Shown here piece after piece: positions 4,308 to 9,098 of a DNA stretch of 21,315 bases. Below the pieces are notes generated by a model. The model searched no databases, was not told the origin of the DNA, and saw only the letters and a list, made by a program, of their open reading frames with translations. Numbering within the stretch: position 1 is the stretch's first letter; each line of letters opens with the position of its first letter. Made by a program: the position numbers and the translations under genes. The stretch covers positions 1-21,315 of IMG/VR virus record IMGVR_UViG_3300044776_000102. One strand, given 5' to 3'. This DNA is from a virus.

Positions 4308-4571
4308 TTAGTTGCAACGAATCTTGTGCTGGCGGTAGGACTCAGCCACTTCTTCTAGGTAGTTGCGGACGCTGCACTCCACGACTCCGTTGTCGTCCCC
4401 GTCGAACTTCAGAGTCATGCCGGCCACCTGCAAGGGTTGGTCCCGCTCCGCGGACATCTTTAGGAACTGCTCTACGCTCATGTTCTCGGCGTAAAGCCCG
4501 CCTGCGTGCAGCTGGATTTGGAAGCGGTGGTGGGCGGCGCAGTAGCGGGCCCGGAGGCTTATTTGAATCAT
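4308..4571 (-). CDS. Hypothetical 87-residue protein of the recombination operon
   Basis: The family is not recognised. The N-terminal part, MIQISLRARYCAAHHRF, is basic with a C-x-x-H-H cluster; the middle (residues 29-60) is acidic and the C-terminus has an amphipathic helix-like stretch (NYLEEVAESYRQHK). There is no signal peptide or membrane segment. The start ATG overlaps the stop of the Rad50 C-half gene in an ATGA, and the stop abuts the next start, so it is embedded in the coupled operon. It may be an accessory factor of the recombination complex, but that rests on position only. Confidence 0.6.
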   Translation of the reverse strand: MIQISLRARYCAAHHRFQIQLHAGGLYAENMSVEQFLKMSAERDQPLQVAGMTLKFDGDDNGVVECSVRNYLEEVAESYRQHKIRCN

Positions 4572-5134
4572 AGCTCTATTATCTGTCCCGTTTCATATTC
4601 CGTTGAGTGTGTGACTTGGATCACTTGCACGCCTAAATCCTCCGACAGTTCTTCCAGCATGGCCCGCACGTTCTCGCGATACTGCTCCGACACGAACTTA
4701 AAGCCCTCGTCAATGACGACAATGCGGGACAAGCGGGGCCGGTGCAGCATCAGGCAAGCCACACGCAAGGCAAAGGCCGCGATGTCCACCACGCCTCCGC
4801 CCGCCGCCGTTAAAGGATCCGCGTCTAGCTCCCGCCGGAGAAAGCGCAAGCTGGCTTCCGTCCGGCCGCGCTTGCGTTCAAACTCGATGTGGAACTGGTA
4901 AGGGTCCTCGAACACGGACTCCAGGCACTTGCTCACTACGGCGGACAAGCGCTCGTGGGCTTGCTGCTGGACGGCTTGCGCGATGAGCTGGAGCACCTCT
5001 TGCGCCTCCTGTGTGTGTTGGACCGCTAACCCGGCTTTGCGCAGTCCCTCCGTCTCCGCCTCCACGTGCCGCTCCCACTGGGTGAGCAGGGCGGCCAGCT
5101 TGGCTACTTCCTTTTCTTCGGCGACAAAGTCCAT
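4568..5134 (-). CDS. Rad50/SbcC-like ATPase, C-terminal half
   Basis: 188 residues from the ATG at 5134, preferred because GGAGGGG lies five bases upstream and the ATG shares one base with the previous stop (TGATG); a start at 5146 would add four residues. It carries the C-terminal half of an ABC/SMC-type ATPase: a short helical coil (1-70), a signature-like AAGGGVVD (110-117), Walker B RIVVIDEGFKF with D142 and E143, and the switch His176 in VTHS. It has no Walker A. The missing N-lobe, with Walker A, Q-loop and zinc hook, is encoded separately at 8067-9098. Together they would form one Rad50 head that regulates the Mre11-like nuclease encoded between them. Split Rad50/SbcC genes with this layout are, from memory, found in other phages; the pairing here is inferred. 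Confidence 0.85.
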   Translation of the reverse strand: MDFVAEEKEVAKLAALLTQWERHVEAETEGLRKAGLAVQHTQEAQEVLQLIAQAVQQQAHERLSAVVSKCLESVFEDPYQFHIEFERKRGRTEASLRFLRRELDADPLTAAGGGVVDIAAFALRVACLMLHRPRLSRIVVIDEGFKFVSEQYRENVRAMLEELSEDLGVQVIQVTHSTEYETGQIIEL

Positions 5135-5379
5135 CAGCCCCTCCATTTTTCCTCGTAGGCGGCCAGCGTCTTCTCAAACGCTGCTTCTGCTTTCTCTTTC
5201 TTTGCTGTAAGCTCGGACAGCTTGAGCTTGGCTTCCTTTAGCGTGCCGCACTCGAACTCATCCCGGAGCCGGGCGAGCAGCTGGTCCAGCGCCCCTTGCG
5301 CCCGGTCTGCCTCTGCCTTCGTTTGCTCCACTTCAGCCTTCAGTTTGCGATACTTCTCCTCTGTTATGTCATTTGCCAT
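5134..5379 (-). CDS. Short coiled-coil protein of the SbcC-like complex
   Basis: 81 residues, almost wholly predicted helix and rich in Lys, Glu, Ala and Leu with heptad-like spacing (for example residues 8-38 and 47-80). A single Cys (Cys44) lies at the break between the two helical arms in a FECGTLKEA segment. It starts after GGGAGG, which is encoded by the end of the preceding gene, overlaps that gene by eleven bases and runs into the Rad50 C-half. The order suggests it supplies part of the coiled-coil arm that a whole Rad50 would carry between its zinc hook and C-terminal ATPase lobe. A similar small coiled-coil gene beside split SbcC genes occurs in other phages as far as I recall. Its biochemical role is inferred from position and composition. 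Confidence 0.75.
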   Translation of the reverse strand: MANDITEEKYRKLKAEVEQTKAEADRAQGALDQLLARLRDEFECGTLKEAKLKLSELTAKKEKAEAAFEKTLAAYEEKWRG

Positions 5380-5695
5380 TTAGCCTCCCATTGTCGGGTT
5401 TGATTCCTAGCTCGCGGCACTTGTCTACCCACGCCTTGTCCGTAGGCTCAGGCAGGAAGTTTATTGCGTGCAAGAACATGAGCTGGACGTTGCGGGCCCC
5501 GCGGCAGATACGCTCCGGCTTGCCGGTGTCCTTGTGGAAGGCGTTGTTCTTCCCTGTGGAGTGGCAAATGCGGGAGGCAGCCCGCTGGGTGATTGGGTCC
5601 AGTCCCAGTATCAACTCGATGGTCACGCCCTGCACGTCCTTGTATTGCTGCGCTACGCCCTCCCGGAAGGGACAGGTGGCGCACTGAGTCTTCAT
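5369..5695 (-). CDS. DUF6283-like Cys-rich protein
   Basis: 108 residues from the ATG at 5695. A longer reading from 5854 is rejected because its first 53 residues overlap the upstream gene out of frame. It begins MKTQCATCPFREG and has two further Cys motifs, RICHST (about 50) and RICRGARN (about 70). The pattern C-x-x-C-P-F/W-R, then C-H, then C-R-G resembles DUF6283, a phage and actinobacterial family of unknown function; four spaced Cys could bind an Fe-S cluster or zinc. The C-terminal 30 residues are hydrophilic and end in GRLNGK, whose codons also form the ribosome binding site of the coiled-coil gene. Five bases separate its ATG from the previous stop. Family call is from motif memory. 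Confidence 0.7.
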   Translation of the reverse strand: MKTQCATCPFREGVAQQYKDVQGVTIELILGLDPITQRAASRICHSTGKNNAFHKDTGKPERICRGARNVQLMFLHAINFLPEPTDKAWVDKCRELGIKPDNGRLNGK

Positions 5696-5700
5696 TACTT

Positions 5701-5961
5701 TCACAGCTTGAGGTGGAGGGCCAAGCCTCCGTGGGTGATTGTTGTAGAGCCGTGGCACACGCAACACTCGCCCTCTTCGTAAAGCGTGTTGGGTTCCACC
5801 AGCGAGCAGCGGGCCCCGCAGTGGGAGCAGGTGAACTTGAAGTTGACATGGCACTTGTCCGGGCCGCCGTATCGTTCGATCTCTTGGTTGGCCAGAGCAG
5901 CGAGCTGGAGGCGGGGCAAGTCCCCGGGGCGGGGCGGGTGTTTAGCGGGAGTGGCTTTCAT
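5701..5961 (-). CDS. Zinc-ribbon hypothetical protein
   Basis: 86 residues from the ATG at 5961; a TTG two codons upstream is possible. The start overlaps the stop of the 48-residue gene as ATGA. The N-terminal 30 residues are basic and Pro-rich. Residues from about 44 form a ribbon: CSHCGARCSL, then the spacer EPNTLYEEGE, then CCVCHGSTTI, giving two CxxC knuckles about 20 residues apart. The ending, THGGLALHLKL, is beta-like. Small zinc ribbons like this occur near replication or recombination genes in many phages; its partner is unknown. It may bind nucleic acid or bridge subunits of the SbcCD-like complex, but no specific function can be assigned. Confidence 0.7.
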   Translation of the reverse strand: MKATPAKHPPRPGDLPRLQLAALANQEIERYGGPDKCHVNFKFTCSHCGARCSLVEPNTLYEEGECCVCHGSTTITHGGLALHLKL

Positions 5962-6104
5962 GCGCAAGTGGTGATAGAGTAAACGAAGTCAAAGCCCATC
6001 GGTCCGTTGAGGAACTTGTTGAGCGCTTGCGCTATGCTTCCCGCTTCTACCGTTTCACAAAGGAACTGGTCCTCCGCGACAAACACTATTAGGAATCTCT
6101 TCAT
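5958..6104 (-). CDS. 48-residue hypothetical protein, coupled at both ends
   Basis: A very short gene running from the ATG at 6104 to the TGA at 5958-5960. It begins MKRFLIVFVAEDQFLCETVEA and ends FVYSITTCA. Its start overlaps the stop of the Mre11-like C-half in an ATGA, and its own stop overlaps the start of the zinc-ribbon gene in another ATGA. This double overlap is the main reason to believe it is real. The first half looks like a small beta-alpha unit (hydrophobic strand, then a helix around EAGSIAQALNKFL). No family is recognised and no membrane segment is likely. It lies between recombination genes with no space on either side. Confidence 0.6.
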   Translation of the reverse strand: MKRFLIVFVAEDQFLCETVEAGSIAQALNKFLNGPMGFDFVYSITTCA

Positions 6105-6424
6105 GCCTTATTATCTAGCGCAGCCAATATGATTTCCTTAACTCCCGGCGCCAAGTCCTCCGTCTCCAAGTGCTGCTCCACGGCCGCGCGGAAGTCCAGC
6201 CCATGCTCGCCCAGCTTTTCCAGCCCTTCGATAAATTCCTTCATGTTAAAAGCTAACTCGGGACGGGCCGCCCCTAGCTCATGGAAGCGATCCCCGGAGC
6301 AGTCCAGCCGCTTGCGCTGGCAAGTCCCGTCGCTCATAATAATTACGATTGAAGGAGTGTAGTCGATCTCATCGGATTTCCTTCTAATGAAAGTCCCGAT
6401 GTTATGAATGGTTTTATTTGACAT
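6101..6424 (-). CDS. Mre11/SbcD-like nuclease, C-terminal fragment
   Basis: 107 residues from the ATG at 6424, which has GGGAGG ten bases upstream; a second ATG at 6442 would add six residues without a matching site. The opening TIHNIGTFIRRKSDEIDYTP is what follows the last metal-ligand motif in phage SbcD-like phosphoesterases (the usual form is vNcGsf-RR--DE-DY-P). The nuclease N-half at 6931-7557 ends GDNHIHWSA, so joining the halves gives a continuous nuclease with no obvious gap. The fragment lacks every metal ligand and should supply the closing strand and capping region. The HNH gene sits between the halves and overlaps this start by eleven bases. Whether the fragment associates with the N-half is unknown; a functional split enzyme or a broken gene are both possible. 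Confidence 0.8.
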   Translation of the reverse strand: MSNKTIHNIGTFIRRKSDEIDYTPSIVIIMSDGTCQRKRLDCSGDRFHELGAARPELAFNMKEFIEGLEKLGEHGLDFRAAVEQHLETEDLAPGVKEIILAALDNKA

Positions 6425-6923
6425 GATTCCAGGCCCTCCCATCCAGGACTTGTCGAATTGTTCCGGGAGCCACCCCGTATTCTTTTGCGAGTCTTCCCCA
6501 ACCGTATCCGGGGGTGTATTTCTTCCTTATCTCCCGCACCTTGTTTTCGGTCAGCTTAGCGTTGGGTTTGTTTGTTCCTTTCGGAGTCCTCCCCCTGCTA
6601 ACCGCGTCTTGTATGTTATCGGATTGGGTTCCGAGAAGGAGATGGTAGGGGTTGCAACAATACGGGACGTCGCAAGTATGACGGACAAGCTCCCCTCCGG
6701 TTGAACCTTTGGTGCAAGGGAGCAGCGGACGGCCTAAATGGATCTCCATTGAAATCCTATGGACAAGACGCATTTGCTCGCCTGCAATCCACGGAGCGAA
6801 TGCTTGTCCGTCCTTATTTCGTTTACCCTTCCAAAGCCAGCATTCTTTTGGACCGCGGATGTCTATCAAGTTCACAAAGGATTTAATCCTTTCCAATTTA
6901 GTTTTCCTGTGAGAAAATCCCAT
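6414..6923 (-). CDS. HNH homing-type endonuclease inserted in the sbcD-like gene
   Basis: 169 residues. The HNH core spans about 78-106 (RHTCDVPYCCNPYHLLLGT, then SDNIQD), with His82, Asn91 and His94 in the expected places and paired Cys that may bind zinc. Before it is a WLWKGKRNKDG segment typical of phage HNH_3 proteins. After it come NAKLTENKVREIR and a helix-turn-helix (about 144-160), ending in DGRAW. Free-standing enzymes of this type nick a conserved target in a related phage lacking the gene, so that repair copies the gene across. The gene fills nearly all the space between the two halves of the Mre11-like gene, with seven bases to the first half's stop. Too little sequence flanks it for a group I intron. 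Its 3' end encodes the ribosome binding site and ATG of the next fragment. Confidence 0.88.
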   Translation of the reverse strand: MGFSHRKTKLERIKSFVNLIDIRGPKECWLWKGKRNKDGQAFAPWIAGEQMRLVHRISMEIHLGRPLLPCTKGSTGGELVRHTCDVPYCCNPYHLLLGTQSDNIQDAVSRGRTPKGTNKPNAKLTENKVREIRKKYTPGYGWGRLAKEYGVAPGTIRQVLDGRAWNHVK

Positions 6924-6930
6924 AGTAGTT

Positions 6931-7557
6931 TTATGCGCTCCAGTGAATATGGTTGTCGCCTATGCAAACTGCGTCGTAGGTCCTCAGCACCTTCTCCAAC
7001 TTTCCGAAGGAAGCTTCCGCCGGAGCGTTTGGAAATGCAGTTCCCCGATTAAGAAAAACATAGCGATGAATCAGTGCTATGTGAGGTTTGCTATTAAGTC
7101 GTTTCTTCAAAGGAACTACTTCTTGCTCCCAGCCAAATCCTCTAACCACACAAGTGCTGGCGTCGTAAGGCTCGCCGCTGCTCAAGTCCCGGATCTTCCC
7201 CGCTTGCTTGAGCACGCCATACCCGCTTCGGTGCATTAAGTCCGTCCGGTGCAGTGGCAAGTCATGCTGCCCAGGGACGCACAGCATTCCGTCGGGCAGA
7301 TGCTCCAGCGCAAAGTTGATCAGCTCAGGCGGGACGTTCCACTTGTCGAAAATATCCCCAGCGCACAGGATAGGCAGGCACTCGGGCCCGGGGTGCCGGC
7401 GGGTCAGTTCATTGCAAGCCAGCTCCCGCACTTGCTGAAGGTAGCCGGCTTGCACTGCCATCCAGTCCTTGTCTGCACGGCACGCAGGTTGGAGCAAGGA
7501 AAGGTGGAGGTCGGCAATAGCAATGGCGATAGGGTAGGGGGTATTTATTCTTTCCAT
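6931..7557 (-). CDS. Mre11/SbcD-like nuclease, N-terminal fragment
   Basis: 208 residues. Calcineurin-like phosphoesterase motifs are in order: IADLHLS (Asp16, His18), CAGDIFDKW (Asp68), VPGQHD (96-99, Gln where most have Asn), ALIHRY (His164) and GDNHIH (200-205). The protein then stops after WSA, whereas relatives continue through a capping segment found here in a separate frame at 6101-6424. It would act as the manganese-dependent nuclease of an SbcCD/Mre11-Rad50 complex, processing DNA ends or hairpins with the Rad50 halves encoded on either side. The start ATG at 7557 lies inside the end of the second HNH gene and uses AAGGAAG from it as ribosome binding site. All metal ligands are in this piece, so activity without the tail is conceivable but untested. 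Confidence 0.85.
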   Translation of the reverse strand: MERINTPYPIAIAIADLHLSLLQPACRADKDWMAVQAGYLQQVRELACNELTRRHPGPECLPILCAGDIFDKWNVPPELINFALEHLPDGMLCVPGQHDLPLHRTDLMHRSGYGVLKQAGKIRDLSSGEPYDASTCVVRGFGWEQEVVPLKKRLNSKPHIALIHRYVFLNRGTAFPNAPAEASFGKLEKVLRTYDAVCIGDNHIHWSA

Positions 7558-8060
7558 GTTCTTCCTTGTAAAATATTCACTATGCTATCGCGGTGCATTC
7601 CGTAGCGGAGCGCAAGAAGCTGTGGGCTCCTACTGGAGTTTCGGATCCTTCGCACCTTCACCCACGTCAGCTTTGCAAAGGTGTTTCTTTCACCACTGGT
7701 ATCAGTCCCGTTTTGTTTTCTGTCCCGCAAGTTGACTGAGTGTGCAGCCCACTCTAAGTTTGACAGTCGGTTGTTTGCAGGAATTGAATTTAGATGCCGG
7801 CTCTCTTTCCCGGGTGGGCGCGGGCCTACAAAAGCTTCAAGCACTAGGCGGTGAACGCTGACTCGTTTCCGTTTCCTGTTCCGATACAAGAAAACCCAAT
7901 TATAACCATCCGCATCCGGTTTGCCTTTCAGCTTTTTCCACGGCCCACGCCAATCCCGGACGGGCCCGGTTTTGTGGCACGAAAACACTTGCCCCTCCGT
8001 GTCTATACGATAAAGTCCATCAAACCCAGCAATGTCTTTTATCCGATAAGGTTCACTCAT
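7545..8060 (-). CDS. NUMOD4/HNH homing-type endonuclease between rad50- and mre11-like genes
   Basis: 171 residues. Residues 4-28 (YRIKDIAGFDGLYRIDTEGQV) match the NUMOD4 DNA-binding motif of homing endonucleases. Residues 89-110 hold the HNH core HLNSIPANNRLSNLEW followed by AAHSVN. The third part, FAKLTWVKVRRIR plus a helix-turn-helix ending NILQGRTWKE, resembles the tail of the other HNH protein in this window, though the N-terminal parts differ. It lies six bases after the Rad50 N-half stop and overlaps the start of the Mre11 N-half by thirteen bases. TTTACAAG occurs at both edges of the gene, a possible insertion footprint. The neighbours are not visibly truncated. Activity is inferred from family; the core has Asn-Ser where Asn-Gly or Asp-Gly is common. 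Confidence 0.85.
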   Translation of the reverse strand: MSEPYRIKDIAGFDGLYRIDTEGQVFSCHKTGPVRDWRGPWKKLKGKPDADGYNWVFLYRNRKRKRVSVHRLVLEAFVGPRPPGKESRHLNSIPANNRLSNLEWAAHSVNLRDRKQNGTDTSGERNTFAKLTWVKVRRIRNSSRSPQLLALRYGMHRDSIVNILQGRTWKE

Positions 8061-8066
8061 TAGTAA

Positions 8067-9098
8067 TTATCTTGTAAACCTAGCTCCGCAAAGAGGGCAA
8101 GCTTTGTCTTGAATCTCTTTGTGAAACTTGTCTTCAGCTTGCTGCGCTAGCTCCTCCAGCACTTTGACCTGGGCTTGCTGCTTGGCTGCTTTCTCATTGA
8201 GACGCGCTAGCGATTGCTCGTGGTCCCGGGCTAGGACCCAGTCGCTATGAGTGCGCATAACAGGGCTGAGGTCCGGCGGGTGCCGCACGTCCTGGAGCCG
8301 CTTCGCTTCTTCTATTATCCCTTGCAGGACTTCGTGGGTCCGCTGCGCTCGGCGGGCCGCCAGCATAACAGCCAGCAGCGCCACACCATCTTCGGCTTGG
8401 GCCGCGAGCGGCTGCGCTTCATTGGCACGGATCCGCTCCAGGACTGCCTCCAGTCCACTGTGAGCTTTATGGGTTTCATCTAGTTTGAGCTGCTGGGCTT
8501 TTAGGGTTTTGAATTGCTCCACCCGCTCCCGCTGCGGGGCTAGTTGCTCGAGCTGCGCTTGTGCCTCCTTCAGCCGCTCCTCCGTTAGGGACTTGCGCTC
8601 TTGCGCCCGCCGGACTTCGCTGGCGATGGCGGCCAGTGTCGTGTCAATGATGCTTAGGTCAATAACGGAGTTGAGCTTGCGGGAGACTTCGCCCGCAGTG
8701 TCCGCAAACCAAAAAGGGGAATCGTGCTGGCCCTGGAAGTTGATATCCGTTAGCGCCAGCGCCGTGGCGATGTCCGGCGGGACGCCTTGCCCAAAGGCTT
8801 TGTATTCCTTGCTCCCCAGGGAGTAAGTGTTCACGTGCCCGTCCCGGGACTTAACGCGGGTGATTAGCCAAGGACCCGGCGCTCCGCTAAGCTGCAAAGC
8901 AACAACCACGCGCTTGGCTCCTTCCCGGATAAAGTCCGCTCCCACGGGATCGTTTAAGCAAACCCAACGCAGGGCCCGGAGCACTGCGCTCTTGCCCGCG
9001 TCCGTGGGTCCTTTGATAGTTGTTACCCCGGGAGCGAACTGCACTGTGAGCGCAGCGTGGGCCTGAAAGTTCTTTAGCGTAATCGACTCCAGTTTCAT
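8067..9098 (-). CDS. Rad50/SbcC-like ATPase, N-terminal half with zinc hook
   Basis: 343 residues. It opens with the ABC/SMC strand pattern LESITLKNFQAH, then Walker A GPTDAGKS (30-37) and a Q-loop region INFQGQHDSPFWF (119-131). Residues about 160-325 are a long coiled coil. It ends in a zinc hook, CPLCG, with Cys334 and Cys337 only six residues from the C-terminus. Rad50/SbcC proteins dimerise through such hooks and use ATP to control the Mre11 nuclease. The other half of the ATPase is a separate gene at 4568-5134, so the chain has been cut just at the apex of the hook. It is the first gene of the minus-strand operon; a candidate minus-strand promoter lies in 9142-9177. No strong ribosome binding site sits by the ATG. 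Confidence 0.88.
   Translation of the reverse strand: MKLESITLKNFQAHAALTVQFAPGVTTIKGPTDAGKSAVLRALRWVCLNDPVGADFIREGAKRVVVALQLSGAPGPWLITRVKSRDGHVNTYSLGSKEYKAFGQGVPPDIATALALTDINFQGQHDSPFWFADTAGEVSRKLNSVIDLSIIDTTLAAIASEVRRAQERKSLTEERLKEAQAQLEQLAPQRERVEQFKTLKAQQLKLDETHKAHSGLEAVLERIRANEAQPLAAQAEDGVALLAVMLAARRAQRTHEVLQGIIEEAKRLQDVRHPPDLSPVMRTHSDWVLARDHEQSLARLNEKAAKQQAQVKVLEELAQQAEDKFHKEIQDKACPLCGARFTR

Follow-up and report, generated by a model that had tools for sequence, protein, structure and literature searches.

In Aeromonas phage Aeh1 the nrdA gene is split by mobE, and the resulting RNR is fully active (Friedrich et al., 2007, reviewed in PMC2988022). The topoisomerase genes 60/39 of phage T4 (mobA) and gene 43A/43B of phage 25 (seg43) are also split, and co-conversion of flanking DNA is a known effect of homing (PMC2988022). 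The original prediction for the locus described here compared it with Aeh1 nrdA/mobE, and the parallel is correct (PMC2988022). The locus holds an sbcD gene that is divided by an HNH gene. The split is genuine, the HNH gene is its cause, and sbcD is a new case among the known genes in pieces (Aeh1 nrdA, T4 gene 60, phage 25 gene 43). The best overall explanation, which we consider probable, is that sbcD was invaded by an HNH homing endonuclease gene and that its product now functions as two chains without a covalent link.

The window is the whole of a 21,315-bp uncultured virus record, for which a DNA-level search against phages returned no match. A minus-strand recombination operon lies between plus-strand tail genes and a plus-strand replication region encoding SNF2-like and DnaB-like helicases. 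The order along the minus strand is Rad50/SbcC N lobe, HNH gene 1, SbcD chain 1, HNH gene 2 and SbcD chain 2, beyond which small ORFs, a coiled coil of 81 residues and the Rad50 C lobe follow on the same strand (Table 1). No terminator was found on the minus strand between the sbcD and HNH parts. A cysteine-rich ORF (CATCPFR...CHST...CRGAR) is present at 5369-5854, downstream of sbcD, and an ORF with 58-59% identity occupies the same position in the relatives L013 and L014.

Table 1. Coordinates of the features of the recombination operon in the 21,315-bp window.
Feature	Position	Strand	Basis
SbcD/Mre11 chain 1, 208 aa, phosphoesterase core	6931..7557	-	ORF; Metallophos E 2.3e-6; model pLDDT 93
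HNH gene 2, 169 aa, homing-endonuclease-type, interrupts sbcD	6414..6923	-	PHROG HNH families E 1e-24
SbcD/Mre11 chain 2, 107 aa from ATG 6424	6101..6424	-	ORF; homologues; profile rank 21/74
Shine-Dalgarno-like site GGGAGGG within final HNH codons	6425..6444	-	duplex energy -10.7 kcal/mol
Low-GC tract, sbcD codons ~139-235 + HNH gene	6346..7140	-	GC scan, 74 genes
HNH gene 1, 171 aa, NUMOD4-like + HNH_3	7545..8060	-	HNH_3 E 1.5e-10
Rad50/SbcC N-lobe ORF, 343 aa, zinc-hook motif CPLC at end	8067..9098	-	AAA_23; Rad50 structures E ~1e-9
Coiled-coil ORF, 81 aa, presumed returning arm of Rad50	5134..5379	-	ORF; locus comparison
Rad50/SbcC C-lobe ORF, 192 aa, signature + Walker B region	4568..5146	-	phrog_15167 ATPase E 6e-22; Rad50 3qkr_B E 3.6e-5

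The ORFs and their translations place both half-genes and the HNH gene where the original prediction had put them. Its assignment of the gene to the Mre11/SbcD family was also borne out: chain 1 matches Pfam Metallophos, and an AlphaFold model of the intact relative L013 (pLDDT 91) returned Mre11 chains as its top PDB matches (E 8e-10). At the sequence level the family profile matches Mre11 weakly, and the family is nearly missing from PHROGs. The metal-ligand motifs of chain 1 are D16xH18, GD68, GQHD (H98), H164 and GDNH (H203). The ligands D16, H18, D68, H98, H164 and H203 do not vary within the alignment and all are kept in the window, and Gln replaces the Asn of GNHD here and in nearly all relatives. 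sbcD lies between genes for the N and C lobes of Rad50, so the expected partner, Rad50/SbcC, is encoded alongside. The C-terminal helices of Mre11 bind Rad50. Chain 2 comprises the last strands of the catalytic domain and the C-terminal helical, putative Rad50-binding part. With the HNH gene inside sbcD, the enzyme has to be made as two separate chains.

IMG/VR was searched with chain 1 and with the alignment, yielding about 80 relatives, and one more was found in a bacterial MAG. Once duplicates and fragments at contig ends had been removed, 73 distinct full-length SbcD sequences were left. All 73 are single uninterrupted ORFs running through the insertion site and none is split; this agrees with the prediction that sbcD is cut by the HNH gene and puts the split far beyond chance. 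The closest relatives, L013 and L014, have 62-63% identity across the whole joined protein, and the chain 2 part is 71% identical to L014. As anticipated, the downstream segment is present in the intact homologues, the gap between the motifs in these does not extend to tens of residues, and the 21-kb record contains no second sbcD copy; eight relative contigs of 66-86 kb carry one copy each. A split allele in a second genome was sought through the relatives search, a scan for the pattern GDNHIHW and a search with chain 2, and was not found, so long-term maintenance of the split cannot be inferred. The match from the pattern scan proved to be unrelated sequence, and the three loci returned by the chain 2 search were the L013 and L014 contigs and an uninterrupted fragment. 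The gene of L071 looked truncated at first and proved to be intact.

The break had been described as lying exactly behind the last metal-ligand motif, with no residue missing at the join. The first statement needs correction, the actual position being 5 residues past GDNH. The second is slightly off: the joined sequence has 10 residues from GDNH to the next N-x-G, or 12 if the Met-Ser of chain 2 is counted, against a median of 13 (about 9-25) in relatives. Chain 1 terminates in GDNHIHWSA-stop. The preferred start of chain 2 is the ATG at 6424 (MSNKTIHNIG..., 107 aa), and an alternative in-frame ATG at 6442 gives 113 aa. The window termini supply 5 + 7 residues at the turn, a loop shorter than usual. 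In the L013 model (pLDDT 91) the cut maps to the turn of the hairpin E201-204/E210-213, which is the site of length variation among the relatives. The model places the cut inside the catalytic domain, away from any domain border. Confidence in the model is lower over its C-terminal part (pLDDT 46-79). Chain 1 modelled alone gave a confident alpha/beta core (pLDDT 93), a result with no bearing on its stability.

No stop, frameshift or lost motif was found in either half, and both are as well conserved as in the intact relatives, without sign of decay. Leave-one-out profile scores ranked the N half 58/74 and the C half 21/74, which is ordinary among relatives, and neither half shows long terminal branches. 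Two of the 39 near-invariant positions (shared by at least 90% of relatives) are changed in the window, W168F and F206W, the latter adjoining the break. The absence of stops, frameshifts and losses at conserved positions argues against the main rival explanation, namely that the insertion killed sbcD and that the halves are remnants too recent to have decayed, or that chain 1 alone keeps a residual role. The well-placed chain 2 start with its SD-like site argues in the same direction, as does the lack of a backup copy in related phages. The conservation, profile and branch tests give the same picture for a working split gene and for a gene split very recently. At third codon positions the N half has reached saturation in its differences from the nearest relatives, so that selection after the split is not separable from selection before it, and dating of the split by dN/dS was ruled out on the same ground. 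A dead gene would also be consistent with a break inside the catalytic domain, with a split allele present in one genome only and with a co-conversion-like tract that suggests a recent event; we regard it as unlikely. From the sequences we infer that the two chains likely form a working nuclease, its expression and assembly included.

In the preferred explanation, that of an invaded gene working as two chains, an HNH homing gene would have entered sbcD at a beta-hairpin turn just past the last metal-ligand motif, and flanking DNA would have been brought in along with it by co-conversion. One transcript would carry three cistrons, for chain 1, the HNH enzyme and chain 2, with the HNH tail enclosing the SD site and ATG of chain 2. 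Chain 1, with the metal-binding core, and chain 2, with the last sheet strands and the Rad50-binding helices, would be re-joined non-covalently. Contacts through the hairpin and the core sheet, together with Rad50, would hold the chains as a working two-chain Mre11. The split allele is known from a single metagenomic record.

The GC content of sbcD codons ~139-235 is ~0.45 vs 0.59 elsewhere. An unbiased scan across 74 sbcD genes ranked the dip of the window as the strongest (z -4.4 vs a mean of -2.1, sd 0.55, for the others) and showed that it brackets the insertion point. An earlier post-hoc test had found that 0/73 relatives reach this dip, and the low-GC tract around the insert is absent from the relatives. 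Over codons 116-208 the protein is 48% identical to L024 vs 42% to L013, and both flanks of this segment are about 70% L013-like. The low-GC tract and this pattern of identities fit co-conversion of the flanks during homing, with a putative donor outside the collections. A fall in GC content to ~0.46 was also observed where the Rad50 N-lobe gene ends, beside HNH gene 1.

The ATAAAAC repeat noted in the original prediction is present at the junctions and constitutes weak evidence, with 3 copies in the window vs 1.2 expected and 11 of 100 shuffles reaching 3. A simple target-site duplication was rejected, as the copies differ in codon phase and excision of the insert plus one copy leaves a stop. 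No longer flanking repeats were found around the insert.

Joining of the halves post-transcription or in translation, by a self-splicing intron, an intein or ribosomal bypassing, is very improbable. HNH genes are often carried in introns or inteins (PMC10448857), but no intron family, group I included, was matched in Rfam at the gathering threshold or at E<=5, and the HNH ORF takes up nearly the whole insert, leaving no room for an intron outside it. An intein was rejected on the stops across the insert and on the three different frames occupied by chain 1, HNH gene 2 and chain 2. For bypassing, no matching take-off and landing codons were seen by inspection around GCA-TAA and TCA-AAT. Misassembly of the HNH gene into sbcD, conceivable for a lone metagenomic contig with GC shifts near the junctions, is scarcely credible, given that both junctions are clean gene starts or ends with an 11-nt overlap typical of HNH cassettes, that the second HNH gene of the operon is arranged alike and that a chimera needs two coincidental joins in one codon region.

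HNH gene 2 has an HNH_3-like core, in which the motif RHTCD...CCNPYH is present, followed by a C-terminal HTH. Its match to Pfam HNH_3 (E 4e-4) is below the curated cut-off, its matches to PHROG HNH families are strong (Table 1), and 1204 phage records out of a collection of 50,697 contain homologues. It is predicted to be of the free-standing homing endonuclease type, with putative cleavage and self-copying activities. HNH gene 1 separates the Rad50 N-lobe gene from sbcD, and its final 13 nt overlap the sbcD start. Neither this HNH gene ahead of sbcD nor the division of Rad50 was part of the original prediction.

The ATG of chain 2 overlaps the final 11 nt of HNH gene 2. The HNH Gly-Arg codons (GGG AGG) form an SD-like site that is the strongest among the operon starts scored, against a background in which 6% of random sites reach -8. 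The distance from this site to the chain 2 ATG is ~10 nt, which is slightly long. Six of ten HNH relatives from isolated phages extend into the start of the gene that follows, and the conserved tail W-R-H-V of several HNH relatives encodes the SD-like TGGAGG. From this small sample the HNH cassette seems built to hand translation on, which would soften the damage done by insertion inside a gene. The terminal codons of these HNH genes (G-R-x-W or W-R-H-V; window genes and L096-L104) were seen to read SD-like.

Other loci were also found to hold genes of this kind. At 3645-5001 of L090, a GIY-YIG homing-endonuclease-like ORF, recognised by eye, occupies the place of HNH gene 1, after the Rad50 N-lobe gene and before sbcD. 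Bacillus phage vB_BboS-125 (L093, 2560-5432) has a Rad50 N-like exonuclease, an AP2-domain gene, a 78-aa ORF and an ATPase, with no sbcD annotated between, and an HNH relative adjoins L073. Predicted homing endonucleases thus recur in the Rad50-sbcD cassette, as GIY-YIG (L090), AP2-domain (vB_BboS-125) and HNH (L073) types.

Rad50 was identified through profile matches of both lobes to Rad50 structures (Table 1). The N-lobe ORF stops shortly past a CPxC-type zinc-hook motif, usually within 10 residues, in 79/79 loci holding it, a number that includes some overlapping stretches of one contig. In all of these loci sbcD comes after the Rad50 N lobe, and in nearly all that are long enough it is itself followed by a coiled coil of ~80 aa and a separate C-lobe ORF. 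Microcystis phage Mvi-JY20 has a similar gene order with all genes annotated as hypothetical, of which the SbcD-like gene alone was matched by search. The same cassette of Rad50 N, sbcD, coiled coil and Rad50 C was observed on a Planctomycetaceae MAG contig (L092), perhaps a prophage or mis-binned phage. A literature search covering few subscription journals found no earlier report of a split SbcD, Mre11, SbcC or Rad50, and no paper on the three-ORF arrangement of Rad50 with a nested sbcD. The Rad50 split is possibly of more interest than that of sbcD. We give even chances to a five-chain Mre11-Rad50, in which Rad50 is three proteins broken at the zinc hook, Mre11 is nested between these and, in this phage, broken within the catalytic domain, and the Rad50 scaffold tolerates the insertion of homing endonuclease genes.

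If the chains work, this would be a case of natural division within the catalytic domain of a universal DNA-repair nuclease. It would mark a hairpin that tolerates a chain break, which would be useful for split-enzyme design and for understanding how Rad50 holds Mre11. It would also indicate that an important gene can be entered cheaply by a selfish one whose tail brings the ribosome site and start codon used by the fragment behind. A Rad50 split at the zinc hook in every examined case of a wider phage family raises the question of whether Rad50 tethering requires the coiled coil to be one continuous chain.

The closest precedent is Aeh1 nrdA/mobE, which shares with the present locus a free-standing HNH-type gene in a critical region of an enzyme, the division into two chains and the existence of intact homologues elsewhere. 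The target here is Mre11/SbcD and its two-chain function is putative, whereas RNR activity has been demonstrated for Aeh1. T4 gene 60/39 and phage 25 gene 43 are alike in being homing-endonuclease-associated fragmentations of a replication or recombination enzyme; they differ in the genes and endonuclease families involved, and the order of events is uncertain in phage 25. In T4 gp46/gp47 and E. coli SbcCD (Mre11-Rad50) a nuclease and an ABC-ATPase partner are likewise encoded together, but in the window two ORFs make up the nuclease and three the ATPase, and sbcD is nested between the two halves of Rad50. The Rad50 ABC-ATPase crystal entries 1f2t, 1ii8 and 3qkr are engineered constructs in which the N and C lobes are separate, pairing chains. 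The split in the window is, in contrast, natural, and its N half retains the zinc hook.
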